The notes under the pieces were generated by a model. The model was not told the DNA's origin, did not search any database, and worked only from the letters and a program-made list of their open reading frames with translations. Positions 1 through 57,999 of a stretch of 58,345 nucleotides of DNA are shown here, in pieces. Each line of letters begins with the position of its first letter. Position 1 is the stretch's first letter. Source of the stretch: Nitrospirota bacterium. Its GTDB lineage: Bacteria > Nitrospirota > Thermodesulfovibrionia > Thermodesulfovibrionales > Dissulfurispiraceae. The translations under genes and the position numbers were made by a program. The stretch is taken from NCBI GenBank assembly GCA_023476565.1, contig JAMCVZ010000012.1:1-58345 (forward strand). The letters are read 5' to 3'.

Positions 1-302
1 CTTGTCGGTATCTTATAAAGTCCGAGGTTGTCATAAAGATGGTGATAAGGGTAGACCATAAATCCACGTCCCCTTTTCCCATGTTTATTCCTCAGATATA
101 TCTGAACCCTCTCTTCCAAGTATCTCTTCAGCTTTGACATGTCGCTGCTACAGTGTCCATAGCGAAAATATCCGACCCAGCCTCTTACCACATCATTGAG
201 TCTTCGGATAGCTGTATCCGTCGGTAGCGCAAGGGTTGTCCTGCCAGTCAGACGTTTTATGGAAATAGGCAACTTAAAATTGATAAAAAACCTTTTTGAC
301 AT
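1..302 (-). pseudogene. C-terminal fragment of a group II intron reverse transcriptase/maturase
   Basis: The minus-strand frame is open from about 302 to the window edge. It reads as the end of a group II intron-encoded protein: RRLNDVVRGWVGYFRYG, then a KLKRYLEERVQIYLRNKHGKRGRG-like basic stretch and a YHHLYDNLGLYKIP tail, which is the maturase (domain X/GIIM) region. The polymerase domain is absent, because the mature tmRNA 3' end at 323 lies immediately upstream, so this is a truncated piece rather than a whole gene. The stop codon is outside the window. Its position directly after ssrA fits mobile DNA accumulating at the tmRNA 3' end. The family call is fairly secure; the exact upstream limit is not. 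Confidence 0.75.
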
Positions 303-322
303 TGTTGATTCGCTCCGTATTT

Positions 323-666
323 TGGTGGAGGCGGCGGGAATCGAACCCGCGTCCGAAAGCACTACTCTCAAGCCTCTACATGCTTATCCTGCCTATTTAG
401 TTTCGGATACCGGATTGCCGGCAGACAGGCCTACCGATACCCTATCCCTTTAGTGCTTTCGCCGGATTTAAAGGATTCATCCGGCGGCAGCCTGCTGTAT
501 GACGCTCTTTCCAAAGCACAGACAACTTCAGAAGAGCGTGCTGCTAGTTAAGCAGCAAGTGCCAGTTCGTTGTTGGCGTTTGTGTTTTTTTCCACCTTTT
601 TACGTGGTGATGGAGCCACGGCATGCCACCTGAGCCTCGTAACCCCCGTCGAGCCCAATCGCCCCC
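323..666 (-). ncRNA. ssrA: tmRNA (ssrA)
   Basis: The transcript starts GGGGGCGATTGGGCTCGACGG, the hallmark 5' end of bacterial tmRNA, and ends ...CGCCTCCACCA. The two ends form a seven-pair acceptor stem (one G-U), and the CCA is encoded. The 3' end has the tRNA-like T arm (GGTTCGATTCCCG type). The tag reading frame ends in A-N-N-E-L-A-L-A-A followed by TAA (tag codons 551-577, stop 548-550). Upstream in-frame codons read V-E-K-N-T-N, so the resume codon is not certain. tmRNA rescues stalled ribosomes and adds a degradation tag. The gene for its partner SmpB lies just upstream on the same strand. Confidence 0.96.
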
Positions 667-686
667 GGTTAAGAGTCTCTTTATTT

Positions 687-692
687 ATTATA
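687..692 (-). promoter_or_regulatory. Extended -10 promoter element of ssrA
   Basis: On the minus strand the sequence reads TGGTATAAT, an extended -10 box whose TATAAT covers this span. It lies 20 bases before the mature tmRNA 5' end, leaving room for a short leader to be removed by RNase P. No convincing -35 box was picked out. Confidence 0.5.
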
Positions 693-715
693 CCATAATC
701 CCGGAATTCCCTTGC

Positions 716-1159
716 CTACCTGTCCTTCATCGCCCGCTCTATATCCCTCCTGGCCTCGCGCTCTTTGATGGTTTCCCTCTTTTCGTACTCTCTCTTGCCT
801 TTGGCGAGACCGATTTCAACTTTCACGTACGAGCCCTTAAAGTATATTTTGAGCGGCACCAGCGTGTAGCCTTTCTGCTGCATTTTGCCTTTTAATCTTT
901 CTATCTCTTTGCTGTGGAGAAGGAGCTTTCGGGTCCTCACCGGATCATGGTTCATGATATTGCCGTGCGTGTACGGGCTTATGTGGCAATTAAAGAGAAA
1001 GGCTTCGGTATCTTTGATGAGCACATAGCTGTCCTTAAGGTTGGCTTTGCCATCCCGCAATGATTTGACTTCCGTGCCGAGGAGCTGGATGCCCGCTTCG
1101 GCAGTTTCCTCGATGCTGTAATCGTGGTATGCTTTTCTGTTCTGGGCCACAACCTTCAT
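716..1159 (-). CDS. smpB: SsrA-binding protein SmpB
   Basis: SmpB is the small OB-fold protein that binds the tRNA-like domain of tmRNA and places it in the A site of stalled ribosomes. The 147-residue product has the family signature throughout: [38 protein letters not shown], and the basic C-terminal tail ([26 protein letters not shown]) that enters the mRNA channel. Length is typical. It lies about 50 bases upstream of the ssrA transcript on the same strand, a common arrangement. The start chosen is the ATG giving the usual [11 protein letters not shown]-terminus. Confidence 0.97.
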
Positions 1160-1229
1160 AATGGTATGATAACAGGATTATGATATAACTTTGAAGTATC
1201 AAATTCTTAAACTCCAAATTCCAGGCTCC

Positions 1230-1280
1230 AAATCCCAAACAGATAAGGAGTCATGGGGGGAGTTTTGAAATTTGGGATTT
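1230..1280. repeat. Intergenic inverted repeat (10-bp arms)
   Basis: The arms AAATCCCAAA (1230-1239) and TTTGGGATTT (1271-1280) are perfect inverted copies separated by 31 bases, between smpB and the lipoprotein gene. The loop is long and there is no clear terminator T-run. The sequence resembles the AT-rich dyad that also occurs inside dxs in this window. Confidence 0.5.
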
Positions 1281-1335
1281 TTCAGCATAATTGTTTATAA
1301 TTCAGTTCAGTTTTGATAGATACCCGGAGGTATAA

Positions 1336-1758
1336 ATGAAAAGGTTTTTGGCTTTGGCGCTCATAATGTTTGTCTTTGTCGCTTCATGCAGCAAGAAAGA
1401 GGTTAAGAGGACGTCTGAAGACTCTAAAATAGCTACAGAGGCCTTTGCGGTTTTAGAGACGGTGAAAGGGGCTTATATAAAAAGGGATATCAACGCCCTT
1501 GAAAAGAACACGACGCGGGAAGGGTTCAGGGCGATCAGCGGCGTTATGAGGAGCTTTGATTCCGCGGAGCTCACTTTTAATCCGGTATTGGTCGAAATAG
1601 AGGACAACACGGTAAATCTCAACGTCTCGTGGACCGGGAAGTGGCAGAAAGGCGGAAAGACTACGGAAGAGCGGGGTATGGCTATATTTGTCATGACCGG
1701 CAGGCCGCTTAAAGTAAACGATATATTGAGGACAAGTCCGTTTAAATATCCGGAATAG
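1336..1758 (+). CDS. Putative lipoprotein, NTF2-like/SnoaL-like fold suspected
   Basis: A 140-residue secreted protein. It starts with MKRFLALALIMFVFVASCSKK: a short basic n-region, a hydrophobic core and a lipobox (V-A-S-C, Cys18), so it is predicted to be lipid-anchored after signal peptidase II cleavage. A ribosome-binding site (GGAGG) sits about 7 bases before the ATG. The mature part is about 120 residues, with a helical start (FAVLETVKGAYIKRDINALEK) and later beta strands ending in a conserved-looking LKVNDILRTSPFKYPE. That layout resembles NTF2-like/DUF4440 domains, but this fold call is inference. Convergent with the aat operon; function unknown. Confidence 0.7.
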   Translation: MKRFLALALIMFVFVASCSKKEVKRTSEDSKIATEAFAVLETVKGAYIKRDINALEKNTTREGFRAISGVMRSFDSAELTFNPVLVEIEDNTVNLNVSWTGKWQKGGKTTEERGMAIFVMTGRPLKVNDILRTSPFKYPE

Positions 1759-1772
1759 GCGCGGGCTCTCTC

Positions 1773-1937
1773 TTAATTCATACACACCCAGGCCATGCAT
1801 TTCATGTGCAGGCCGACATATGAATAGTCGGATACTATTGTGCATGTATAAGCGACTCCGCTGTATGCCCGCATGCTGTAATTATCAAATATCTTTACTG
1901 CCGGCTTCTCGTATTCGCTTAAATCCCTCTGCCTCAT
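1773..1937 (-). CDS. Small Cys-containing peptide, possible modified-peptide precursor
   Basis: The frame encodes 54 residues if the ATG at 1937 is used. That start is preceded by a G-rich Shine-Dalgarno-like run (AGGGGGGG) about 5 bases upstream, better than the longer 80-residue start at 2015. The N-terminal part reads ...LSEYEKPAVKIFDNYS, resembling the YxKP-beta leader segment seen in many small ribosomally made peptide precursors. The C-terminal part is aromatic with three cysteines (TCTIV, MKCMAW, VCMN). No modification enzyme is adjacent, and similarity to known precursors is only by eye. It could be a chance frame. It lies downstream of aat on the same strand. Confidence 0.35.
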   Translation of the reverse strand: MRQRDLSEYEKPAVKIFDNYSMRAYSGVAYTCTIVSDYSYVGLHMKCMAWVCMN

Positions 1938-2070
1938 CTTGCCCCCCCTGTCCGGCTCTGAACGGCATTCCTGTTTAACTGCTGCCTCCACGGGCGTTCC
2001 TTTTATACTATACATATCGTCTGATGCTTGCGTTCCTTTAGAAGAGGGCGGTCTTAAGGGGTGAGATTAC

Positions 2071-2094
2071 ATGGCAGGCACAGGCGCCTGCCAT
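2071..2094. other. Stem-loop downstream of aat
   Basis: ATGGCAGGC (2071-2079) and GCCTGCCAT (2086-2094) form a perfect 9-bp stem with a 6-base loop just past the aat stop. There is no T-run on the minus strand, so it is more likely an mRNA 3'-end stabiliser or a small repeat than a classic intrinsic terminator. Confidence 0.45.
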
Positions 2095-2129
2095 GCCCTG
2101 TATATCAGCGAGAGCCCTCGTTCTATTGT

Positions 2130-2825
2130 TCATTTGGAAGAGAATAGCAGGTTCCACTTCCCTTTAACCGCAGGCATTCCCAGCGCACGATGCAGCATCC
2201 GCATGAATTCACCCCGGGGAATCTCTTTTGCCCCGAAGCCCATGAGGTGGCTGGTCGTTACCTGGCAATCTATGCAGGTAAAGCCCCATGCGATCAACTG
2301 GCGCACGAGCTCTGTGAAAGCTGCTTTGGAGGCGTTGCTCATCTTTGAGAACATCGATTCACCGAAAAAAGCCTTCCCCAACGAAACCCCATAAAGTCCG
2401 CCCGCCAGTTCGCCGTTGCGCCAGCTTTCGACTGAATGCGCGAAGCCTGAGTGATGGAGGCGGGTGTATGCCTCGATCATATCTTCCGTAATCCATGTGC
2501 CTTCATTTTTTTTTCTGGGAGCTTCCGCGCAATTCCTGATGACCTCCTCAAAGGCGGTATCCATGGTCACTCTGAATGTATTTTTTTTGATGACCTGCCT
2601 GAGGCTCCTCGATACCTTGAGTTCTTCAGGAACGAGGACAAGGCGGGGATCAGGGGACCACCACAAGATCGGAAAGCCTTCCGAATACCAGGGGAAGATT
2701 CCCATTGAATAGGCGAGCAAAAGGCGCTTTTCGCTTAAATCGCCCCCTACGGCGAGCAGGCCGTCCTTTTCAGCCAGTTCGGGCGGCGGAAAGATTAACT
2801 TTCTTGAGAGCTGGAATACGGGCAT
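2130..2825 (-). CDS. aat: Leucyl/phenylalanyl-tRNA--protein transferase
   Basis: Aat transfers Leu or Phe from charged tRNA onto proteins with N-terminal Lys or Arg, creating N-degrons for ClpS. The 231-residue product shows the family blocks FPPPELAEKDGLLAVGGDLS, LLLAYSMGIFPWYSEGFPILWWSPDPR, GTWITEDMIEAYTRLHHSGFAHSVE (with the SVE substrate-site segment), GGLYGVSLGKAFFGESMFS and FTCIDCQ. Length matches the family. It is the last gene of clpS-clpA-aat, 34 bases after the clpA stop, so the adaptor, the unfoldase and the enzyme that makes the degron are probably co-transcribed. Confidence 0.97.
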   Translation of the reverse strand: MPVFQLSRKLIFPPPELAEKDGLLAVGGDLSEKRLLLAYSMGIFPWYSEGFPILWWSPDPRLVLVPEELKVSRSLRQVIKKNTFRVTMDTAFEEVIRNCAEAPRKKNEGTWITEDMIEAYTRLHHSGFAHSVESWRNGELAGGLYGVSLGKAFFGESMFSKMSNASKAAFTELVRQLIAWGFTCIDCQVTTSHLMGFGAKEIPRGEFMRMLHRALGMPAVKGKWNLLFSSK

Positions 2826-2859
2826 GTCGCATCATGAATATCTGCATATGCATTAGTGC

Positions 2860-5121
2860 TCATTGAGAGTAAGTGAAGCTCAGGCAATCATCTTTCAGGT
2901 CGATGACCACCTCGCCGCCCTTGCTCAAGCTGCCGAAGAGCACCTCCTCGGACAGGACATCCTTGACTTCCGTCTGGATAAGACGGGCCAGCGGGCGGGC
3001 GCCGTAAACGGAATCGTACCCCTTCTTCGCGAGCCAGTTCCGCGCCTCAGCGGAGAGTGTAATTGAAACCTGCTTGCGGCCGAGCTGCTGCTGGAGTTCC
3101 GCGATGAATTTATCGACCACTTGTTTCATAATATCCGGAGTCAAATGTTCGAAAGTGATTGTGGCGTCAAGCCGGTTTCTGAATTCCGGACTGAACAACC
3201 TGTTGATCGCGTCATTGCTCTTCGACCGGGTATCCCTGTCCCGGTCCCCGAAGCCGATAACGTTCTTCGTCATATCTTTGGCCCCGGCGTTCGAGGTCAT
3301 GATGAAGATGACGTTCCTGAAATCGGCCTTCTTGCCGTTATTGTCCGTCAATGTCGCATAATCCATCACCTGCAGGAGGATGCTGAAGATATCGGGATGG
3401 GCCTTTTCGATCTCATCCATGAGGAGGACGCTGTAGGGATGCTTTCTGACGGCATCCGTCATCAGCCCCCCCTGATCGAACCCGACGTAACCGGGAGGCG
3501 CGCCGATCAGTCGTGCAACGGTATGCTTCTCCATATATTCGCTCATATCAAAGCGTATGAACTGGACCCCCATAACAGACGCCAGTTGTTTCGAGACCTC
3601 GGTTTTCCCGACGCCCGTGGGCCCTGTGAACAGGAAAGAGCCGATGGGAGTGTCCGGCGACCCGAGGCCCGCACGCGAGCGCTTGATTGCCGACACAAGG
3701 GAGTGGATGGCGCTGTCCTGGCCGAACACCGCGCTTTTCAAATCATCTTCAAGCCGTTTCAGCTTGTCCGTATCCGATGAGGAAATAGTCCTCGGAGGGA
3801 TTTTCGCGATCCTGGCAACTACCCTTTCGATCTCGGTGGTCCCGACCGTCCTCTTGTTCTTATGCAGAGGGGAGAGTTTTAATTCGGCCCCTGCTTCATC
3901 TATAACATCGATGGCCTTATCAGGCAGGTATCTGTCGTTGATATGTTTTGCCGAGAGTTCGGCTGCTGCTTTTAGGGCATTCTTCGTATATTTAACATTA
4001 TGGAAATCTTCGTAGTACGTTTTCAATCCATCGAGGATCTGTATGGTCTCCTTGATCCCGGGTTCCTGGATCTCCACCTTCTGGAACCTCCTGGAGAGCG
4101 CGCGGTCTTTCTCAAAATGGTTTTTGTACTCTTCGTACGTGGTTGCCCCGATGCAGCGCAGTTTGCCGGAATTCAGCAGCGGCTTTAAAATATTGGAGGC
4201 ATCCATGGACCCGCCGCTGGTCGCGCCTGCCCCTACAATGGTATGTATCTCGTCAATAAAAAGGATTGCCTGCGGGACCTTCTGGAGGCCTTTCATGGTT
4301 GCTTTAAGGCGCGCTTCGAAATCCCCCCGGTATTTTGTCCCCGCGAGCAGCGCCCCCATGTCCAGCGAAAATATTCTTGCTTTCTTTAAAGCCTCGGGCA
4401 CCTGCCCCTGGTGGATATGCAAGGCGAGTCCCTCGACAATGGCGGTCTTGCCCACACCGGGCTCTCCCACGAGGATAACGTTGTTCTTTCTTCTTCTGCT
4501 GAGCACCTGGATGGTCCTCTTTACTTCCGGTTCGCGACCGATCAGGGTATCGATCCCCCCTTCCGCCGCTTTCCCGACGAGGTCCCCCGCGAATTGCCTG
4601 AGCGGGTCCCTGTTTTCGGATTCCCTGCTCCGTGGTGACCCCGACGGCTCGGCATCATCATCATCGTCATTACTTAAAGGCTCATCCGACACTTTCGATG
4701 CACCATGAGAGATATAGTTGAGGACATCTAGCTGTTTTATGTCTTCGGATTCAAGAAAATGGACAGCGTGCGAGTCCTCTTCCAGAAATACGGACGAGAG
4801 TATATCGCCGGCATCCACTTCCTGCTTCCCGGCTGATTGTACGTGGCTCAAAGCCCTCTGTATTACCCTCTGGAACCCCAGGGTCGGCTTTGAGTGGAAA
4901 CCGGGCTTCATCGGCAATTTCGGGAGGCTCTCTTTGAAGAAACGCTCGACCGACGCCTTGAGCCGCGCTATGCTGCCGCCGCAATGCGTGATAATCTCAA
5001 TCCCCCAATCATCGTGGAGGGCGGCGAACAGAATATGCTCAACAGTCAGGTACTCATGCCCTTTTTTTTCCGCATCGCGTATTATGGCCCCGAGTGTTAA
5101 TTCCAGTTCTTTGTTGATCAT
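2860..5121 (-). CDS. clpA: ATP-dependent Clp protease ATP-binding subunit ClpA
   Basis: A Hsp100 AAA+ unfoldase that feeds substrates to ClpP. It has an N-terminal Clp repeat domain ([13 protein letters not shown]..., about residues 1-140), a first AAA+ module with Walker A GEPGVGKT near residue 215, and a second module with GPTGVGKTE near residue 500, followed by the C-terminal D2-small domain. The short linker without a ClpB middle domain, and the length of 753 residues, identify ClpA. The start at 5121 is preferred to an upstream ATG because it forms an ATGA overlap with clpS and has GGAGAGA just before it. An acidic DDDDDAE linker lies near residue 155. No clpP is in the window. Confidence 0.97.
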
Positions 5122-5432
5122 TCTCTCTCCATTATACATTTAAGCGGGAACCGGCGCTTGCGGGCGAGTTCGTGCACCATGGCGACTTTTGTTTCAGCAA
5201 TGTCCCTTGTATAAACACCTGCCAGCCCGGAGCCGTTCTTGTGGACATGAAGCATTATCTGAGTGGCTTCTACCGTGGATTTGTGGAAGACGCTTTCGAG
5301 GACATGGACAACGAATTCCATGGTCGTATAATCATCGTTGAGCAGCAAGACCTTGTACAGGGACGGTTTTTTGGTCCTCTGCCGGGTTTCGACTTCAAGC
5401 CCTTCTTCATATTTCGATTTGCCGAGGCCCAT
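5118..5432 (-). CDS. clpS: ClpS adaptor (N-recognin)
   Basis: ClpS binds proteins with Leu, Phe, Tyr or Trp at the N-terminus and hands them to ClpA. The 104-residue product has the characteristic core [20 protein letters not shown], then [21 protein letters not shown]. The NDDYTTM stretch and the H(V)H motif line the degron pocket. The disordered N-terminal arm of about 25 residues is typical. It overlaps clpA by 4 bases. Its 5' end (positions 5365-5432) lies inside the 837-bp tandem duplication, which created a second, truncated clpS start at 6269; this copy is the intact one. Confidence 0.96.
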
Positions 5433-6131: not shown

Positions 6132-6269
6132 TCATGATAAGATATTTTCCCGGAGAGCGGAATGCAGGCTTTTAGAAATCCCATTCCTACTGTTGATATA
6201 AGGTTTTTTGGTCCTCTGCCGGGTTTCGACTTCAAGCCCTTCTTCATATTTCGATTTGCCGAGGCCCAT
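6132..6269 (-). pseudogene. Truncated clpS 5' end created by the duplication
   Basis: The clpS start is reproduced at 6269. The frame encodes the first 22-23 ClpS residues ([20 protein letters not shown]...), then crosses the junction into antisense Nudix sequence and stops at 6132 after 45 codons. The degron-binding core is missing, so it cannot act as an adaptor. Confidence 0.8.
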
Positions 6270-6299
6270 GTTCTTGTGTATTGGAGCAGTGTGATTTAA
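6162..6299 (+). pseudogene. Truncated Nudix gene 5' end created by the duplication
   Basis: The first 13 codons of the downstream Nudix gene ([13 protein letters not shown]) are present. The frame then crosses the junction into sequence antisense to clpS and stops at 6297-6299. No Nudix box is present. Confidence 0.8.
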
Positions 6300-6308
6300 G
6301 ATTACAAT

Positions 6309-6512
6309 TTATTTGCAGGAACTGCAAGAGCCCGAACTGCAGGACGAGCACCCCGAAGATGCCGGATTTTCGACTCCGCTCATGCCGAATACCGAAAATT
6401 TCTTCAGGACATCCTTTGAGTTGCATTTTGTACAGGTGACTTTTTGATTGCCGGAAACGAGTTTTTCGAATTCCTCCCCGCATTTTTTACATTTATATTC
6501 ATAAATCGGCAT
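6309..6512 (-). CDS. FmdB-family zinc ribbon protein, copy 2
   Basis: Identical in protein sequence to the copy at 5472-5675, with the two CxxC pairs and the Ser/Cys-rich tail. It lies within the second unit of the tandem duplication, divergent from the second hfq. Unlike copy 1 it is followed only by the truncated clpS start. Confidence 0.85.
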   Translation of the reverse strand: MPIYEYKCKKCGEEFEKLVSGNQKVTCTKCNSKDVLKKFSVFGMSGVENPASSGCSSCSSGSCSSCK

Positions 6513-6721
6513 TTTTGATTCTCCCTGCTATATTCTTTACAAATCACATGCTGTAAACTTGACTTTATTATAACATAGAGCTTGAATTATTAAGCGGAAT
6601 CTTTTAAGGTAATTAAAATATGTATAAGCAGCGGTCGTCCATGTGCCTTTAAATTAAACAAGGGCTTATTGAATCAAAGGCGATCCGCGGAATGCAGAAT
6701 GCATACTAATGAGGAGGAACC

Positions 6722-6964
6722 ATGGGCGGGAGCAAAGGTCAAAGTCTCCAGGATAATTTCCTGAACCAGTTGAGGAAGGAAAAGATTCCTGTTGTGGTGT
6801 ATCTTACCAATGGCGTGAGATTAAAAGGAGTAATCAAAGGCTTTGATAGTTTTGTCATCCTGCTTAAGGAAGCGAACGAGCAGCTTATATACAAGCACGC
6901 GGTCTCGACCATCGTTCCTGAGAAGATCGTTGATCTAAGGATTGAGAGCTCTGAAGCCGGTTGA
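6722..6964 (+). CDS. hfq: RNA chaperone Hfq, copy 2
   Basis: Identical to the hfq at 5885-6127, including the ribosome-binding site and upstream region. This copy has the ancestral downstream context, with the intact Nudix gene starting 34 bases later. If the duplication is real, Hfq dosage would be doubled. Confidence 0.88.
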
Positions 6965-6998
6965 AATCTCATGATAAGATATTTTCCCGGAGAGCGGA

Positions 6999-7397
6999 AT
7001 GCAGGCTTTTAGAAATCCCATTCCTACTGTTGATATAATAATAGAATATAAGGGTGGAATAATCCTTATAAAGCGGGAGAACCCTCCTCCGGGCTGGGCC
7101 ATTCCGGGAGGGTTCGTGGATTACGGCGAGAGCCTTGAGTATGCCGCCGTGCGGGAAGCAAAAGAGGAGACGGGGCTCGATATAAGACTTGTGAGGCAAT
7201 TCCATACCTATTCATCTCCGGACAGGGACGCGCGCTTTCATACGATAAGCACGGTGTATATTGCGAAGGGCGAGGGTGAACTCAATGCGGGAGATGATGC
7301 AGGGGAAGCGGGCATATTCACGAGTGACCGTCTGCCCGAAGAGATTGCCTTTGATCACAGAAACATTCTTAAAGATTATTTTACCGGGAGGTATTGA
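6999..7397 (+). CDS. Nudix hydrolase
   Basis: A 132-residue Nudix enzyme that hydrolyses a nucleoside diphosphate linked to another group. The Nudix box is complete: G38-x5-E44-x7-R52-E53-x2-E56-E57-x-G59, within [24 protein letters not shown], which supplies the Mg-binding glutamates. PGWAIPGGF just before it and the DAGEAGIF strand after it resemble ADP-ribose pyrophosphatase or MutT-type relatives, but the substrate cannot be read from the sequence. It is followed after 3 bases by the SurA-N-like gene, so the two are probably co-transcribed with hfq. Confidence 0.92.
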
Positions 7398-8189: not shown

Positions 8190-9653
<1,464 letters not shown>

Positions 9654-53562: not shown

Positions 53563-54268
53563 GATGTCAACAGGCTGTTGCCCAAATCCCGATAAAATAT
53601 GGCAAGAGAATTGCTAACAAAAGAGATAAGAACTTTTGTTGGGAGGCAGTACTATATGATGGGATACCATGTTGTGCCGCAGGGAAAATTATTTTACATG
53701 GGGATAGACCTTGATAAGAAGGTGCGCCGGAATCATCCACTCAGAAAGATAATCGAGATAGTGGATTTTGACTTCATCTATCAGGAGGTAAAGAAAAGTT
53801 ATGGGGGCAATGGAAATGTTTCAGTCCCATCGGCCGTAATACTGAAACTGATCTTATTGTTGGTATTTTACGTTTGTCAGATCAGAGAGGGAGCTAATGG
53901 AAACCTTGCCTGAGAGATTGGACTGGCTATGGTTTTTAGGATATGACCTGGATTCTGATATGCCCAATCACAGTGTGTTATCGAAGGCACGCAAGAGGTG
54001 GGACAAGAACAAAAGCGCAGGGACAGTCAATCAGCGTTACATATCTACAACCGATCCGGCAAGCTGCAATAGTGCGGTATAGCGGAAGCAAGGCAAAGCT
54101 CTCCTATAAAACACACAGGGCAGTTGATCCAGCATATGAAGCAATAACTGAAAGCGGAAGTAACCTCTGGCGACATATAATGATGCATACAGGAATATCA
54201 TTTTCAGGGTGGACGGTAGATCAGAACAAATCCTGAGAAAATGCTTTGGGCAACAGCCTGTTGACATC
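53563..54268 (+). mobile_element. Decayed IS1182-like insertion sequence
   Basis: Perfect 24-bp terminal inverted repeats bound the element (53563-53586 and 54245-54268), each containing the internal palindrome CAACAG-G-CTGTTG. The interior is about 0.7 kb, well below the usual 1.5-1.8 kb of IS1182 family members, and its transposase is broken. It may survive as a non-autonomous derivative mobilised by a related transposase. No target duplication was clear next to the ends. Confidence 0.85.
53599..54236 (+). pseudogene. IS1182-type transposase fragments
   Basis: The frame starts MARELLTKEIRTFVGRQYYMMGYHVVPQG and is open to 53913. It continues in other frames as RLDWLWFLGYDLDSDMPNHSVLSKARKRWG and then DPASIVRYSGSKAKLSYKTHRAVDPAYE. 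Together these match the N-terminal and DDE-proximal parts of IS1182 transposases (the ISTTDPDA...KL.Y..HRAVD pattern). At least two frameshifts and an internal deletion remove much of the catalytic core. Confidence 0.85.
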
Positions 54269-54319: not shown

Positions 54320-54373
54320 GTGCCGGTGGAGAGATTTGAACTCTCACGCCCTTGCGGACAACGGATTTTGAGT
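54320..54373 (-). repeat. attL-like 54-bp partial copy of tRNA-Leu
   Basis: A 54-bp direct repeat of 57916-57969, corresponding to the tRNA-Leu 3' half from the anticodon loop through the acceptor end. Past the anticodon loop the sequence diverges, so this is not a functional tRNA. It is the duplicated attachment core left by an integration at the tRNA. Confidence 0.9.
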
Positions 54374-54592
54374 TTCAGATGCGTCCAGTATTTTCAAGGC
54401 TTACCGTCTTTGCTGTGGTCACGGCTGGCTTGTTTACGCCGTTTGTTGTAGTCACCGAGCATATCGTTGTTTATCTTCAGTTTCCATAGTTGTCATAGTC
54501 TGCTTCAGAAATATAACTGCTTTGGCATATAACTAATAATATGTTATCTATAAGAATATATTATAAATAAATTACTATTGACATATACCTCT

Positions 54593-54601
54593 TGGTATAA
54601 T
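54593..54601 (+). promoter_or_regulatory. Extended -10 promoter, TGGTATAAT
   Basis: TG-G-TATAAT is a perfect extended -10, with TTGACA at 54578-54583 also available at 17-base spacing to a TATTAT at 54601-54606. Either way transcription would start at about 54608-54613, at or within a few bases of the zinc-ribbon ATG. There is no ribosome-binding site, so the mRNA is predicted to be leaderless or almost so. Confidence 0.6.
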
Positions 54602-54612
54602 ATTATTCATTT

Positions 54613-54777
54613 ATGCCGACAGTAACACTACATGGATTTCAGTGCTTGAGATGTAATCATCAGTGGTTTCCGAGGAAAAAGGAGGCTGCACGGGTATGCC
54701 CTAAATGTAAGAGCCCTTACTGGGATACACCGAGGAGAAAATCAGTTCAGAAAGCACAGAGGCACAATAAGGCATAA
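54613..54777 (+). CDS. Short zinc-ribbon protein
   Basis: A 54-residue protein with two CxxC pairs: CLRCNHQWFPRKKEAARVCPKCKSPYWDTPRR. The pattern is that of the small 'WxPR...CPxCxSPYW' zinc ribbons often found beside toxin or restriction genes, so it is probably a DNA-binding regulator or antitoxin. Its ATG lies at the predicted transcription start, with no Shine-Dalgarno. The methylase gene follows 5 bases after the stop, so it is the first gene of a three-gene operon. Confidence 0.8.
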   Translation: MPTVTLHGFQCLRCNHQWFPRKKEAARVCPKCKSPYWDTPRRKSVQKAQRHNKA

Positions 54778-54782
54778 GGAAG

Positions 54783-57293
54783 ATGAGGGACAATCTAACT
54801 TTCGGCAAGATTGACGATGCGTTCGTAAAAATAGGCTACAGGCGTAGCCTGATCAAGAGGGGCTATCAATATGCTGACCTCTTTTCATCGGGGGTGCCTA
54901 TACGCACTGTGGGAAGAGCTATTTTCGGGCAGGAACCCCTCGATTATCGTTCTGCCTGTTTTGGCATTCAAGCAGATGAAACCAACCGGCCATCTTCTTC
55001 AGTTATTAATGAACTGAGAGCGCTGGGTGCTCCTCAGATATTTATTTTGAGCAATGGCGTCACTGAGCGATGGGCTATTACTGAGCGGGAGCCGGTTCTC
55101 CAAGCAAAATATAAGACAGTCAACTTACCAAATATCATCTCCCAGAATGCTAATGAATGGAATCCTAAAGCCATAATCAGAGCAAAGGCTGGCTTTGTTA
55201 AACCGTCGCATCAGCAGATGGACTTTGTGGATATTGGGCTGCTTCCGGCACTGGAGAATCAAGCCGCAGAAAAGATTGATTATTTGCTAAGGGCGATACT
55301 CCATCATACTGAAGAAGAAATTAAGAAGCATAACCTGGCATTTCAGCCCGCGGCAGTATTCAGAGTCGTTTTTCGTTTGTTAGCAGCCAAATTACTTAAA
55401 GATCGGGATGTATTGAATTCCTCAAGTATCGATTTCTCTGCTCCTCAGACTGCATTGCAGGCTGTAACTAATTATTATGGCTCGTCCTTACCGTTTGTCA
55501 CTTCAGGACTTCCTTCAGCGATATTAAAAGCCATTGCGCAGGAAATAGGTAACAGCTTTTCTTTGCGCAATATATCCGTAGATACTCTTACATATATTTA
55601 CGAAAATACATTTGTCTCACCAGAAAGTCGGCAAAAGCTTGGCATTCATAGCACACCATCATATGTGGCGGATTATGTAATGTCACAAATTCCAATAGAA
55701 GATTTACCACGATCGCAGTGGAACACTACCGATCCAATGGCCGGACACGGTATTTTCCTCATAGCAGCTATGAGAAGGATGAGAGATTTTCTGCCGCAAG
55801 ACTGGAGCGGCCAACAGCGACATAAATTTTTCGTTTCTCATCTTCATGGGATAGAAATCGATGCCTTTTCGGTCGAGGTCGCGCGTATGTGTCTAATGCT
55901 TGCCGATTTTCCGGAGCCAAACGGATGGGATTTAGTTAATGCCGATGTATTTGCCAGCAAGACGCTTGAAAATGCAGTAGCAAACACCATGATTCTTGTG
56001 GGCAATCCTCCATTTGAGAATATAGAAGGCAGAAGCCCAGACACACCCAAGCCCGCTGAGCTTTTGAGACGGGCGCTACCGGTCCTGCCTGCTCAATCCT
56101 TAATTGGACTGGTCTTACCAAGGTCTTTTGTTGACGGCACTGATTACAAAAAAGAGCGTGAAACGATCCTGAAAGATTTTGAGATAATTTCTCTTACGGC
56201 ACTACCTGACCGCATTTTCCTGCATTCCGATATGGAAACAGCAATTATTGTTGGTCGCAAACACGAGCGCAGTCGCAATCACAAAGTGGCGTATCGCGAA
56301 GTTAAAGATCGGGATCGCAGGAGTTTCCGCTTCAGGCATCAAGTCACATGGGAAGACAAAGTGCAGCAGGACTACTTTAAGGACAAAATGCATGGGCGGC
56401 TTATAGTTCCTTTGCTTCGTGAAATCTGGGAGCGACTTGAAAGCTATGCAAAGCTGGGAGACATGACTAATATCAATATTGGTGTTCAATATAAGCCTAA
56501 CCTAGAGAAAGAAGATTTCAATAGAATAATTCGATCTCAACCATTGTCGGGAGCTAAACCTGGTATTTACAATGTTTCCAATGGGTTCAATCAATTTGCA
56601 GCGGAAGATGTTGTCTACATGGCTACTGAGAAGAAATATCGGAGATTTGAAAATTCAAATGCATGGGATTTGCCGTGGGAAAAGCCAAAGGTAATTGTTC
56701 CTGCTTCACGTATATCACGATGTCCATGGCGGTACGCAGCTGCAATTGACAAGATAGGTTTGATAATAAGTCGAAGGTTTTATGGTATTTGGCCCAAAGT
56801 GGATTTGCTTGACGTAGAAATACTCGCGGCTTTTTTGAACTCTCCTCTTGCTCAAGTTTTTACTTATGCGCATAGCTTTCAAAAAGATATTCCCAAACGA
56901 GTATATGCAGCCATTCCAATCCCTGAAATATCCTCTGACGCAAGACAAGCTATTTCTTCTCTTGTCCATAATTATCTAGATTCCTTGCATAAAGACGAGT
57001 TCAAGGCTAAAGACATTTTACTTCAGATAGATGCTGAAGTATTAAGTCTCTATAACCTCTCCCCTCGTTTAGAAAAACAGCTTTTGGATATTTTTTGGGG
57101 ATATCAGCGTCGTGTCCCTTTTGATTTCATTGAATACATCCCACGTGAAATTGATTCTTGGATTCCGTTGCATCTTTATATATCTGAACAGTTCAGAGAT
57201 GCGACACCCAAAAAGATTTTGGAGCGTTTGCCTGTGATTCATGACAGGGCATTTCTTGATTACATAAAACGCATCGGGATGGACGAAGAATGA
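54783..57293 (+). CDS. N6-adenine DNA methylase-like protein (type IIG-like layout)
   Basis: An 836-residue protein. Near residues 317-325 it carries SAM motif I (TDPMAGHGIFLIAAM), and near 408-411 the catalytic NPPF motif (VGNPPFENI), so it is an amino-DNA methyltransferase. The C-terminal part (DLLDVEILAAFLNSPLAQVFTYAHSFQKDIPKRVYAAIPIPE) resembles target-recognition domains of type IIG/TaqI-like methylases. The 300-residue N-terminal part is conserved-looking, but no PD-(D/E)xK motif was spotted; its RTVGRAIFGQEPLDYRS and QIFILSNGVTERW segments deserve a structural check. Its stop overlaps the PIN ATG. Either an orphan methylase or a restriction enzyme with an unusual nuclease. Confidence 0.75.
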   Translation: MRDNLTFGKIDDAFVKIGYRRSLIKRGYQYADLFSSGVPIRTVGRAIFGQEPLDYRSACFGIQADETNRPSSSVINELRALGAPQIFILSNGVTERWAITEREPVLQAKYKTVNLPNIISQNANEWNPKAIIRAKAGFVKPSHQQMDFVDIGLLPALENQAAEKIDYLLRAILHHTEEEIKKHNLAFQPAAVFRVVFRLLAAKLLKDRDVLNSSSIDFSAPQTALQAVTNYYGSSLPFVTSGLPSAILKAIAQEIGNSFSLRNISVDTLTYIYENTFVSPESRQKLGIHSTPSYVADYVMSQIPIEDLPRSQWNTTDPMAGHGIFLIAAMRRMRDFLPQDWSGQQRHKFFVSHLHGIEIDAFSVEVARMCLMLADFPEPNGWDLVNADVFASKTLENAVANTMILVGNPPFENIEGRSPDTPKPAELLRRALPVLPAQSLIGLVLPRSFVDGTDYKKERETILKDFEIISLTALPDRIFLHSDMETAIIVGRKHERSRNHKVAYREVKDRDRRSFRFRHQVTWEDKVQQDYFKDKMHGRLIVPLLREIWERLESYAKLGDMTNINIGVQYKPNLEKEDFNRIIRSQPLSGAKPGIYNVSNGFNQFAAEDVVYMATEKKYRRFENSNAWDLPWEKPKVIVPASRISRCPWRYAAAIDKIGLIISRRFYGIWPKVDLLDVEILAAFLNSPLAQVFTYAHSFQKDIPKRVYAAIPIPEISSDARQAISSLVHNYLDSLHKDEFKAKDILLQIDAEVLSLYNLSPRLEKQLLDIFWGYQRRVPFDFIEYIPREIDSWIPLHLYISEQFRDATPKKILERLPVIHDRAFLDYIKRIGMDEE

Positions 57294-57808
57294 AGTACCG
57301 TTATTATCTTCTTGATACGAATATTCTTGGCCCTCTTGCTGAGTTTAAAGCCGCGATCAAGACTGATGAAAGTGCCAAAATAGAGAAACATATGAATGCC
57401 TTACCGGAAAATACAAGAATATTTTTGTGTCCTATATCTGTTGGTGAAGTTGAAAGTGGTGTTCGTATTGATTATAAAAATTCCGATAAAACAAAACTTG
57501 CTCAGGAAATATTATCTGCATTTACTTGTTTGCCGATTGATGCAAATTTGGCACGTGAGTACTATGCAAAACTGCGGGCAAGACTTTTTAATAAATATGC
57601 TCCAAAAGATTCTGATAACAGAAAGAAGAGAAGAATGGAAGAATGGAGAGAGCCAACAACATCAAAGGACTTAAAGATTCAGGAAAACGATCTTTGGCTT
57701 GCAGCTGTCGCAATGGCTCACAATCTTATTTTGGTTACTCGCGACAACATGGATGCGATAAGGGAAGTGGCCGGGTCTGCCATTGCTTTTGAGAATTGGT
57801 TAGAGTAA
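57290..57808 (+). CDS. PIN-domain ribonuclease (VapC-like)
   Basis: A 172-residue PIN domain: acidic residues Asp9 (LLDTN), Glu53 (SVGEVESG), Asp134 (QENDLWLAAVAMAHN) and Asp152 (TRDNMD) form the expected metal site. It is somewhat longer than standard VapC because of a charged loop (KYAPKDSDNRKKRRMEEWREPTTSK). ATGA overlap with the upstream methylase shows translational coupling. No VapB is adjacent; the small zinc-ribbon protein two genes upstream is the best candidate regulator. This is an inferred arrangement. Confidence 0.9.
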   Translation: MKYRYYLLDTNILGPLAEFKAAIKTDESAKIEKHMNALPENTRIFLCPISVGEVESGVRIDYKNSDKTKLAQEILSAFTCLPIDANLAREYYAKLRARLFNKYAPKDSDNRKKRRMEEWREPTTSKDLKIQENDLWLAAVAMAHNLILVTRDNMDAIREVAGSAIAFENWLE

Positions 57809-57915: not shown

Positions 57916-57969
57916 GTGCCGGTGGAGAGATTTGAACTCTCACGCCCTTGCGGACAACGGATTTTGAGT
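57916..57969 (-). repeat. attR-like 54-bp core inside tRNA-Leu
   Basis: The second copy of the 54-bp direct repeat, forming the 3' half of the intact tRNA-Leu(CAA). Together with 54320-54373 it bounds a 3.6-kb island. The crossover region includes the anticodon loop, a usual target for tyrosine recombinases. Confidence 0.9.
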
Positions 57970-57999
57970 CCGTCGCGTCTGCCATTCCACCACACCGGC
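57917..57999 (-). tRNA. tRNA-Leu(CAA)
   Basis: The acceptor stem GCCGGTG pairs with CACCGGC. The anticodon loop CTCAAAA gives anticodon CAA (codon TTG), with a long variable arm (about 14 bases: TGTCCGCAAGGGCG) that marks a class II leucine tRNA. The T arm GAGAG-TTCAAAT-CTCTC is intact. The CCA end is not encoded. It serves as the attachment site of the island. Confidence 0.96.

Follow-up and report, generated by a model that had tools for sequence, protein, structure and literature searches.

A Nitrospirota bacterium carries, within the 58,345-nucleotide stretch of DNA analysed here (the window), what is probably a mobile toxin-antitoxin-like unit with a DNA methyltransferase at its core, i.e., a type IIG-like enzyme that would have lost its nuclease, carry a tail with antitoxin function and keep a co-translated toxin in check. 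Among relatives of this methylase, different types of translationally coupled downstream gene go together with different C-terminal tails.

The island and its genes

The N6-adenine DNA methyltransferase (54783-57293, forward strand; 836 amino acids) and a PIN-domain RNase, the proposed toxin (57290-57808, forward strand; 172 amino acids), are encoded by overlapping genes, and the open reading frame coordinates confirm the ATGA overlap of the original prediction at positions 57290-57293. The pair lies in a 3.6-kb island flanked by 54-bp perfect direct repeats, between which only one further gene was identified, coding for a 54-amino acid zinc-ribbon protein (CxxC...CxxC; 54613-54777, forward strand). 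The right repeat (57916-57969) is the 3' part of a tRNA-Leu gene with the anticodon CAA (57916-57999, reverse strand), the apparent integration site, and the att-like left repeat (54320-54373) is a 100% identical copy of this part. The repeats had not been mentioned in the original prediction. A tRNA search covering 60 of the 80 loci from the genome scan, together with a search of the loci for repeats, showed the 54-bp tRNA repeat in the window only; L076 and L055 contain short tRNA-internal repeats, and L084 harbours longer repeats away from any tRNA.

The best sigma-70-like operon promoter (TTGACA-17-TATTAT; 54578-54606, forward strand) agrees with the consensus at 11 of 12 positions and is assigned by this match only. 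Within the promoter region, TTGACATATACCT is also present upstream of the related loci L025 and L026, and TTGACATATACC is a motif common to all three. The palindrome TATACC-TCTT-GGTATA was rejected as a conserved operator, as it was not found in register in L025 or L026.

Architecture of the methylase

The central methyltransferase domain (residues 267-521; 55581-56345, forward strand) includes an NPPF motif (codons at 56004-56015) and matches Pfam N6_Mtase (PF02384; 3.3e-10) above the curated cut-off. The NPP of motif IV is conserved without exception in the 83 methylase rows; the catalytic motif expected of a type IIG N6 methylase is therefore intact. The structures of CamA and M.BseCI match the methylase over residues ~265-764, and a weak TaqI-like specificity-domain match (residues 632-695; 56676-56867, forward strand; E 0.0012, below the cut-off) points to a target recognition region.

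The N-terminal domain (residues 1-137; 54783-55193, forward strand) appears to be a pseudonuclease. The first ~140 residues were modelled (pLDDT 87.7) as a PD-(D/E)xK nuclease fold, and nucleases or nuclease-like proteins of this fold occupy the top rows of a structure search (Z 9.5-8.0, rmsd 3.0-6.9, 111-131 aligned residues); in the VIA-align ranking, other folds with lower Z are interspersed with the nucleases and follow them. The strand expected to carry the catalytic E-x-K, located by secondary structure and not by superposition (residues 57-62), contains neither D/E nor K in 80 of 80 rows; a D/E-x-K triplet occurs elsewhere within residues 36-70 in 5 of the 80. On this model the catalytic D...(D/E)xK residues of a type IIG enzyme seem to be missing, and since the E-x-K strand is erased throughout, the domain is unlikely to supply the restriction nuclease that the pair lacks. 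A hidden active restriction nuclease was accordingly rejected. The earlier observation that no nuclease motif is readable in the methylase was right, and one of the findings named in advance as fatal to the original interpretation, a PD-(D/E)xK nuclease within the methylase, is borne out for the fold and not for the catalytic strand.

The same arrangement of a PD-(D/E)xK-fold N-terminus, a helical linker, an N6 methylase and a recognition domain is found in the type IIG/IIL enzymes DrdV, BpuSI and MmeI. DrdV aligns over residues 1-758 of the methylase model (Z 21.2), and the N-terminal domain alone reaches Z 9.5 with DrdV and 9.0 with BpuSI. In contrast to these enzymes, the methylase family lacks the E-x-K, possesses an additional partner-specific tail and, wherever the locus is readable, precedes a toxin-type gene.

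The methylase and recognition fold is also common to PglX/BrxX of BREX (9ewz, Z 23.6), and the model of Mad2 from MADS matches the methylase (2.6e-16), yet the island contains no partner genes of these systems (for BREX, PglZ, BrxC and others in one locus) and encodes a two- or three-gene unit. BrxX/PglX bound to Ocr is among the close structural matches, which would suit a guard of another restriction system that senses DNA-mimicking phage anti-restriction proteins, as PARIS does with Ocr. Passages of PMC12707154 and PMC3506569 describe the principle for PrrC/EcoprrI and PARIS, where a toxin is held by an immunity component and freed upon phage attack. However, no restriction genes were recognised by eye beside the 13 loci with neighbours listed, as open reading frames without family annotation, and such a guard function appears highly improbable. 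Unlike PrrC/EcoprrI and PARIS, the unit consists of a single methylase without a restriction enzyme, a fused antitoxin domain and an exchangeable toxin.

Partner exchange and the C-terminal tail

A genome scan found 96 relatives, 80 of which were kept. The survey comprises 85 related methylase loci; L002-L004 were dropped as duplicates (of L025, L026 and L037), L006-L020 were left out as weak partial methylase matches, and six more methylase-PIN loci (L121-L126), which came from the PIN search only, stand outside the 85. By record names, the family is spread over some eleven phyla. The downstream gene is readable in 82 loci and codes for a toxin or nuclease type in all 82, namely PIN (69), HNH (7), RES (4; L023, L086, L097, L104), HEPN (1; L033) or a metallo-beta-lactamase fold (1), five effector types that are unrelated to each other. 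L065 is counted here as HNH, and as unknown by phylum and in the tail-model count. In the remaining three loci the partner is undeterminable, as the contig ends in the methylase (L034, L093) or a frameshift combines with a contig end (L092). The gap between methylase and partner ranges from -16 to +10 nt in the 80 of 85 relatives measured (all except L028, L065, L034, L092 and L093), where choosing the start codon nearest to -1 favours small gaps; this range argues for coupling beyond chance. In a phage collection, 20 records match the methylase domain only and none covers 80% of the query; single-sequence scans of viral contigs and genome contigs with P0001, as well as the A1 query in viral contigs, gave no yield.

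The PIN protein of the window matches Pfam PIN (PF01850; 8.4e-12) above the curated cut-off and contains, as originally predicted, its acidic residues: the four (D9, E53, D134, D152) are all there, and none of them varies among the 65 PIN partners that exceed 120 amino acids. VapC models of NCBIfam give weak matches of 40.1 and 21.3 bits, against cut-offs of 140 and 80, and a PDB sequence search returned weak VapC rows. The PIN fold and the four acids are shared with VapBC, whereas the window PIN has an insert of ~28 residues before ENDLW, and the gene directly upstream of each of the 10 strong PIN relatives from 298 genomes encodes the methylase and not VapB. The original prediction would have failed had such PIN genes normally occurred without a methylase; these ten relatives, all directly behind a methylase, rule out a chance neighbourhood, and the genome-neighbourhood search it had called for shows that the pair recurs widely, as given by the partner counts. 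In three loci (L028, L055, L098) an intact methylase gene stands beside a broken PIN gene, which is the direction expected for a toxin and its antitoxin.

RES, one of the partner types, is an NAD-hydrolysing family and could not serve as a restriction nuclease. A restriction system with an out-sourced nuclease, in which the methylase finds unmethylated sites through its target domain and brings in the coupled effector, which then cleaves foreign nucleic acid there, would account for the dead nuclease domain of the methylase and for the HNH partners, with their similarity to PtuB and to HNH nucleases from defence systems (L095 partner). Yet the position of the HNH gene is taken in other loci by RES, HEPN or metallo-beta-lactamase genes, RES is not known to restrict DNA, and the tails match antitoxins rather than recruitment domains, which renders this explanation very unlikely. 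The exchange of the coupled gene for other toxin types, including RES, supports the earlier view that this is no classic restriction enzyme; the abortive, toxin-type design proposed alongside accommodates the pair best.

In the window, the partner-specific tail comprises residues 779-836 (57117-57290, forward strand). A model of the PIN-type tail recovers all 68 PIN-type rows, including 4 that had not been used to build it, and none of the 12 non-PIN rows. On the tree, tail and partner agree in 5 of 5 independent pairs (p 0.0625, the lowest value reachable with these five pairs, the only ones available). The RES-type tails represent two separate gains, and their homologues include stand-alone proteins whose genes directly precede RES. 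The L023 tail matches PF23125 and PF09722 and the L097 tail PF23125, each below the curated cut-offs; PDB sequence searches with the L023 tail and with the methylase returned nothing useful. Plasmids contain 74 and 188 records homologous to the two RES-type tails, many of which are annotated as Xre/MbcA/ParS antitoxin or encoded before RES (three were examined in full). Similarly, the HEPN-type tail of L033 is 43% identical to a 206-amino acid protein encoded 3 nt upstream of a HEPN gene, whose product is 39% identical to the L033 partner; in plasmids the HEPN tail has no match. A stand-alone HNH-type tail beside an HNH gene was found neither in plasmids nor in the 298 genomes, and one lone copy of the HNH-type tail occurs in a phage.

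Searches for the PIN-type tail found it only within this methylase (10 of 10 matches in the 298 genomes, 2 of 2 in plasmids), never as a stand-alone protein. Adjacency and translational coupling of the two genes are seen here, antitoxin homology pertains to the RES- and HEPN-type relatives and not to the PIN-type tail, and the tail is a putative antitoxin of the window PIN by analogy. The RES-type relatives share with Xre/MbcA-RES modules the RES gene directly behind, with an ATGA overlap, and an antitoxin domain homologous to the tail; in contrast to these modules, the antitoxin is the C-terminus of a 924-945-amino acid methylase instead of a 178-237-amino acid protein. Such RES pairs are confined to L023, L086, L097 and L104, while the window has a PIN and a PIN-type tail. 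The zinc-ribbon protein, earlier considered as a possible antidote of PIN, is probably a regulator: 6 of the 85 loci have an open reading frame with the motif, and L032 adds a shorter tblastn match, a distribution that rules it out as a general antitoxin and leaves its role as antidote unsupported. The tail of the methylase itself is the better candidate.

A plain addiction module, where the tail is an ordinary antitoxin, the methylase lends only stability or regulation of host genes and methylation is not the trigger, would be in keeping with a small mobile island at a tRNA gene, with relatives on plasmids and in unrelated chromosomal settings and with DNA-binding proteins that some relatives encode upstream, as in toxin-antitoxin operons. 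A mere carrier, however, would not need the invariant NPP or the conserved pseudonuclease and recognition folds, and we regard this alternative as rather unlikely.

A methylase as a putative antitoxin

In the favoured toxin-antitoxin-like reading, the tail would bind and silence the co-translated toxin, here the PIN RNase, and the methylase would thereby act as the antitoxin. Less firmly, target recognition and the methylation state of the methylase might loosen the complex and free the toxin; alternatively, the trigger might be a phage that inactivates the methylase through an anti-restriction protein, degradation or unmethylated phage DNA. The freed toxin would stop translation and result in abortive infection or in the killing of cells that lose the island. 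Gating of the toxin by methylation is a plausible hypothesis. Only tentatively, the family may represent a widespread class of conflict systems, in which a methylase derived from restriction-modification, with a dead nuclease, serves as a universal docking and sensing platform, PIN, RES, HNH, HEPN and MBL toxins are swapped along with a matching tail, and DNA methylation state or capture of the methylase by phage decides on toxin release. A literature search found no description of such a methylase-toxin unit.

In 2012, Makarova and colleagues (PMC3506569) described immunity loci with toxins but without typical antitoxins and proposed that immunity proteins themselves restrain the toxins. In the present family, an immunity-type methylase carries a recognisable antitoxin domain as part of the same protein, and the 2012 proposal thus becomes directly testable with two genes. 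The exchangeable tail would offer a route to the antitoxins of orphan toxins of the HNH and HEPN types. The family also illustrates how the nuclease of a type IIG-like enzyme can be lost and the lethal step passed to a separate protein.

The methylase-PIN unit and its tRNA-Leu locus

The N6-adenine methylase (836 aa, 54783-57293; Pfam PF02384, 3.3e-10) and the PIN-domain protein (172 aa, 57290-57808; PF01850, 8.4e-12) are encoded on the plus strand within a 3.6-kb unit flanked by two perfect 54-bp direct repeats. The left repeat (54320-54373) is an exact copy of the right one (57916-57969), which forms the 3' part of a tRNA-Leu(CAA) gene on the minus strand (57916-57999). The two reading frames overlap by ATGA, as stated in the original prediction, and are preceded by a gene for a 54-aa zinc-ribbon protein (54613-54777, plus strand) and a good candidate promoter (54578-54606, plus strand), which matches 11 of 12 consensus positions. 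Immediately to the left of this island is an insertion-sequence remnant (53563-54268) bounded by perfect 24-bp terminal inverted repeats; its transposase-like reading frame, called by eye, is broken, and Pfam yielded nothing useful for it.

The window corresponds to contig 12 of a draft genome totalling 2.67 Mb, and no integrase was identified within the 3.6-kb unit. A congeneric genome (L178) carries a tyrosine integrase gene (6221-7330; PF00589, 7.2e-23) after the same tRNA-Leu(CAA), which on the side away from the integrase adjoins the same cation-efflux gene as in the window. L181, a further genome from the family, has an empty site at this locus, the tRNA-Leu being directly followed by an mnmE-like gene (named by eye). 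In a third genome (L177), tRNA-Leu(CAA) precedes a MazE/AbrB-PIN pair as well as three additional tRNA 3' fragments, an arrangement (842-5244) that looks like tandem mini-islands. Judging from these three loci, the unit is most likely the cargo of an integrative element that has lost its integrase, or borrows one. A distant Caulobacteraceae copy (L076) also has a tRNA-Leu(CAA) (8591-8675), approximately 67 nt behind the PIN gene.

Coupling of the methylase to toxin- or nuclease-type partners

A profile built from seven methylases was used to search one genome per species, and 80 of the 96 loci found were brought in. Together with three plasmid relatives, the window and a distant relative (L005), this yielded 85 loci, chosen by their methylase and not by its partner. 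A readable gene lies behind the methylase in 82 of them, and every one of these 82 partners is of a toxin or nuclease type: 69 PIN proteins, seven HNH, four RES, one HEPN and one protein of the metallo-beta-lactamase fold. The 69 PIN genes include several that are disrupted or run off the end of a contig (L028, L055, L098, L044). Those RES and HNH partners that were scanned gave E-values of 1.5e-16 to 1.1e-19 and 0.0026 to 3.4e-5, respectively, and the metallo-beta-lactamase-fold partner 5.1e-7; the HEPN partner (L033) is a weak match (E 0.019), not named by Pfam itself. With the nearest start chosen, methylase and partner overlap in 37 of 80 measured loci and are separated by 0-10 nt in the other 43.

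The same linkage emerges when the search starts from the PIN protein. A PIN profile run against 298 genomes retrieved 10 strong, full-length matches (E at most 1.7e-55), all of them with the methylase directly upstream. The weaker matches start at E 5.8e-10 and represent generic VapC-like proteins, which skip an insert of about 28 residues characteristic of the PIN subfamily; at none of 20 such loci examined was the methylase found upstream. Given a toxin- or nuclease-type partner at every readable locus and the methylase linkage of all strong PIN relatives in the 298 genomes, the two genes are not neighbours by accident. The acidic residues claimed for the PIN protein are indeed present, D9, E53, D134 and D152 being intact in 65 of 65 sequences.

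In three loci (L028, L055, L098) the PIN gene is deleted or frameshifted and the methylase intact; no clear reverse case was seen. One record titled as a Klebsiella pneumoniae metagenome-assembled genome (L088) clusters with rows from Binatota and Planctomycetota, and its bin label is doubtful.

Toxin-antitoxin operons are usually regulated by DNA-binding, zinc-ribbon, ribbon-helix-helix or AbrB-like proteins. A related DNA-binding-like protein of ~150-180 aa is encoded upstream in 48 of the 85 loci (MerR_1, 3.3e-6 in L048), and the zinc ribbon in the window and five close relatives, with a shorter match in L032. The HEPN locus L033 has a ribbon-helix-helix protein (weak match) and L005 a small protein, AbrB-like by eye.

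A methylase tail that follows the partner

The C-terminal tail of the methylase (residues 779-836 in the window) follows the partner type. PIN-type methylases stop ~58 residues past a conserved LL..F.G..R motif, while RES-type tails are ~90-110 and HNH-type tails ~25-40 residues longer. A PIN-type tail model, built with four rows left out, matches 68 of 68 PIN-type rows and none of 12 others, and recovers the four omitted rows at 9.8e-10 or better; outside the tail, the compared methylase rows of differing partner type share 43-54% identity. In a methylase tree of 83 rows, HNH forms a single clade next to a PIN-type row, RES requires at least two gains, and HEPN is nested among PIN types. A further HNH case, initially scored unknown (L065), falls outside the HNH clade. 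Tail and partner change in the same direction in each of five independent pairs (p 0.0625, the lowest value possible with five pairs).

By sequence, the RES- and HEPN-type tails are homologous to antitoxins. The RES-type tail of L023 matches the middle (PF23125, 0.011) and C-terminal toxin-binding (PF09722, 1.5e-4) domains of Xre/MbcA/ParS proteins, and the L097 tail matches PF23125 (8.3e-5), all below curated cut-offs. Among 72,556 plasmids, homologues of the L086 tail occur in 74 records (best 50.9% over 99% of the tail, 3e-22) and of the L023 tail in 188, L023 itself among them; many of those listed are annotated as Xre/MbcA/ParS antitoxins or directly precede RES genes. Three plasmid regions that were read encode a 178-237-aa protein followed, with a short overlap, by RES. 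The HEPN-type tail of L033 has one strong match in the 298 genomes, a 206-aa protein (43% identity) encoded 3 nt ahead of a HEPN-like gene, whose product is 39% identical to the L033 partner. This HEPN-like gene and the antitoxin-like gene (L150, 1066-2115) adjoin a partial DNA-methylase-like reading frame, named by eye.

A viral contig (L162, 2938-3228) encodes the HNH-type tail as a stand-alone protein of 96 aa, whereas the plasmid and genome searches gave no such copy; no HNH gene was found beside the viral copy, and it is possibly a phage-borne antitoxin against the methylase-toxin system. For the PIN-type tail no stand-alone copy was found, all 10 genome and both plasmid matches lying within the methylase, and we therefore infer by analogy with the RES and HEPN cousins that the window's own tail may serve as the antitoxin for PIN.

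A full-text literature search, with subscription papers and preprints outside its scope, returned no description of methylase-toxin pairing by title or abstract. The portions available of PMC12839542, PMC2701414, PMC3710099, PMC13092281, PMC12707154, PMC3506569 and PMC4365076 do not describe a methylase with an antitoxin tail; PMC3710099 notes HEPN domains of restriction-modification systems fused to nucleases and helicases, not to methylases.

A type IIG-like methylase with a dead nuclease domain

The AlphaFold2 model of the methylase (mean pLDDT 88.7) matches CamA (Z 27.6, rmsd 3.4, 466 aligned), M.BseCI (Z 24.1), BREX BrxX (23.6), MmeI (22.9) and, over model range 1..758, DrdV (Z 21.2). The original prediction suspected a cryptic nuclease fold at the N-terminus, rightly so, given the structural matches of this domain to nucleases. 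Predicted separately (153 residues, pLDDT 87.7), it resembles DrdV residues 27-160 (Z 9.5, rmsd 3.8, 123 aligned), a putative restriction-endonuclease-domain protein (9.2), BpuSI 24-169 (9.0), HsdR (8.5), two uncharacterised or nuclease-like proteins (8.1 and 8.0), a DUF820 nuclease (7.8) and more nucleases sharing this fold; the corresponding Foldseek E-values are weak, with 4.2e-3 as the best. Predicted strand 58-64, which is the E-x-K strand in this fold and was located by secondary structure, not superposition, reads SA-[CA]-FG-[IV], and residues 57-62 contain neither acid nor lysine in any of 80 rows. The methylase motif residues are intact (NPP and G321 each in 83 of 83). The protein is a type IIG-like enzyme whose nuclease domain is dead.

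The coupling, the intact catalytic residues, the dead nuclease fold, the tail-partner correspondence and the homology of RES- and HEPN-type tails to antitoxins form the demonstrated ground for a mechanistic model. Its weakest step is that methylation triggers toxin release, and a plain addiction module is a serious rival. In the proposed model, PIN would be a toxin held by the methylase tail, and loss or capture of the methylase, or its engagement on foreign DNA, would harm the cells.
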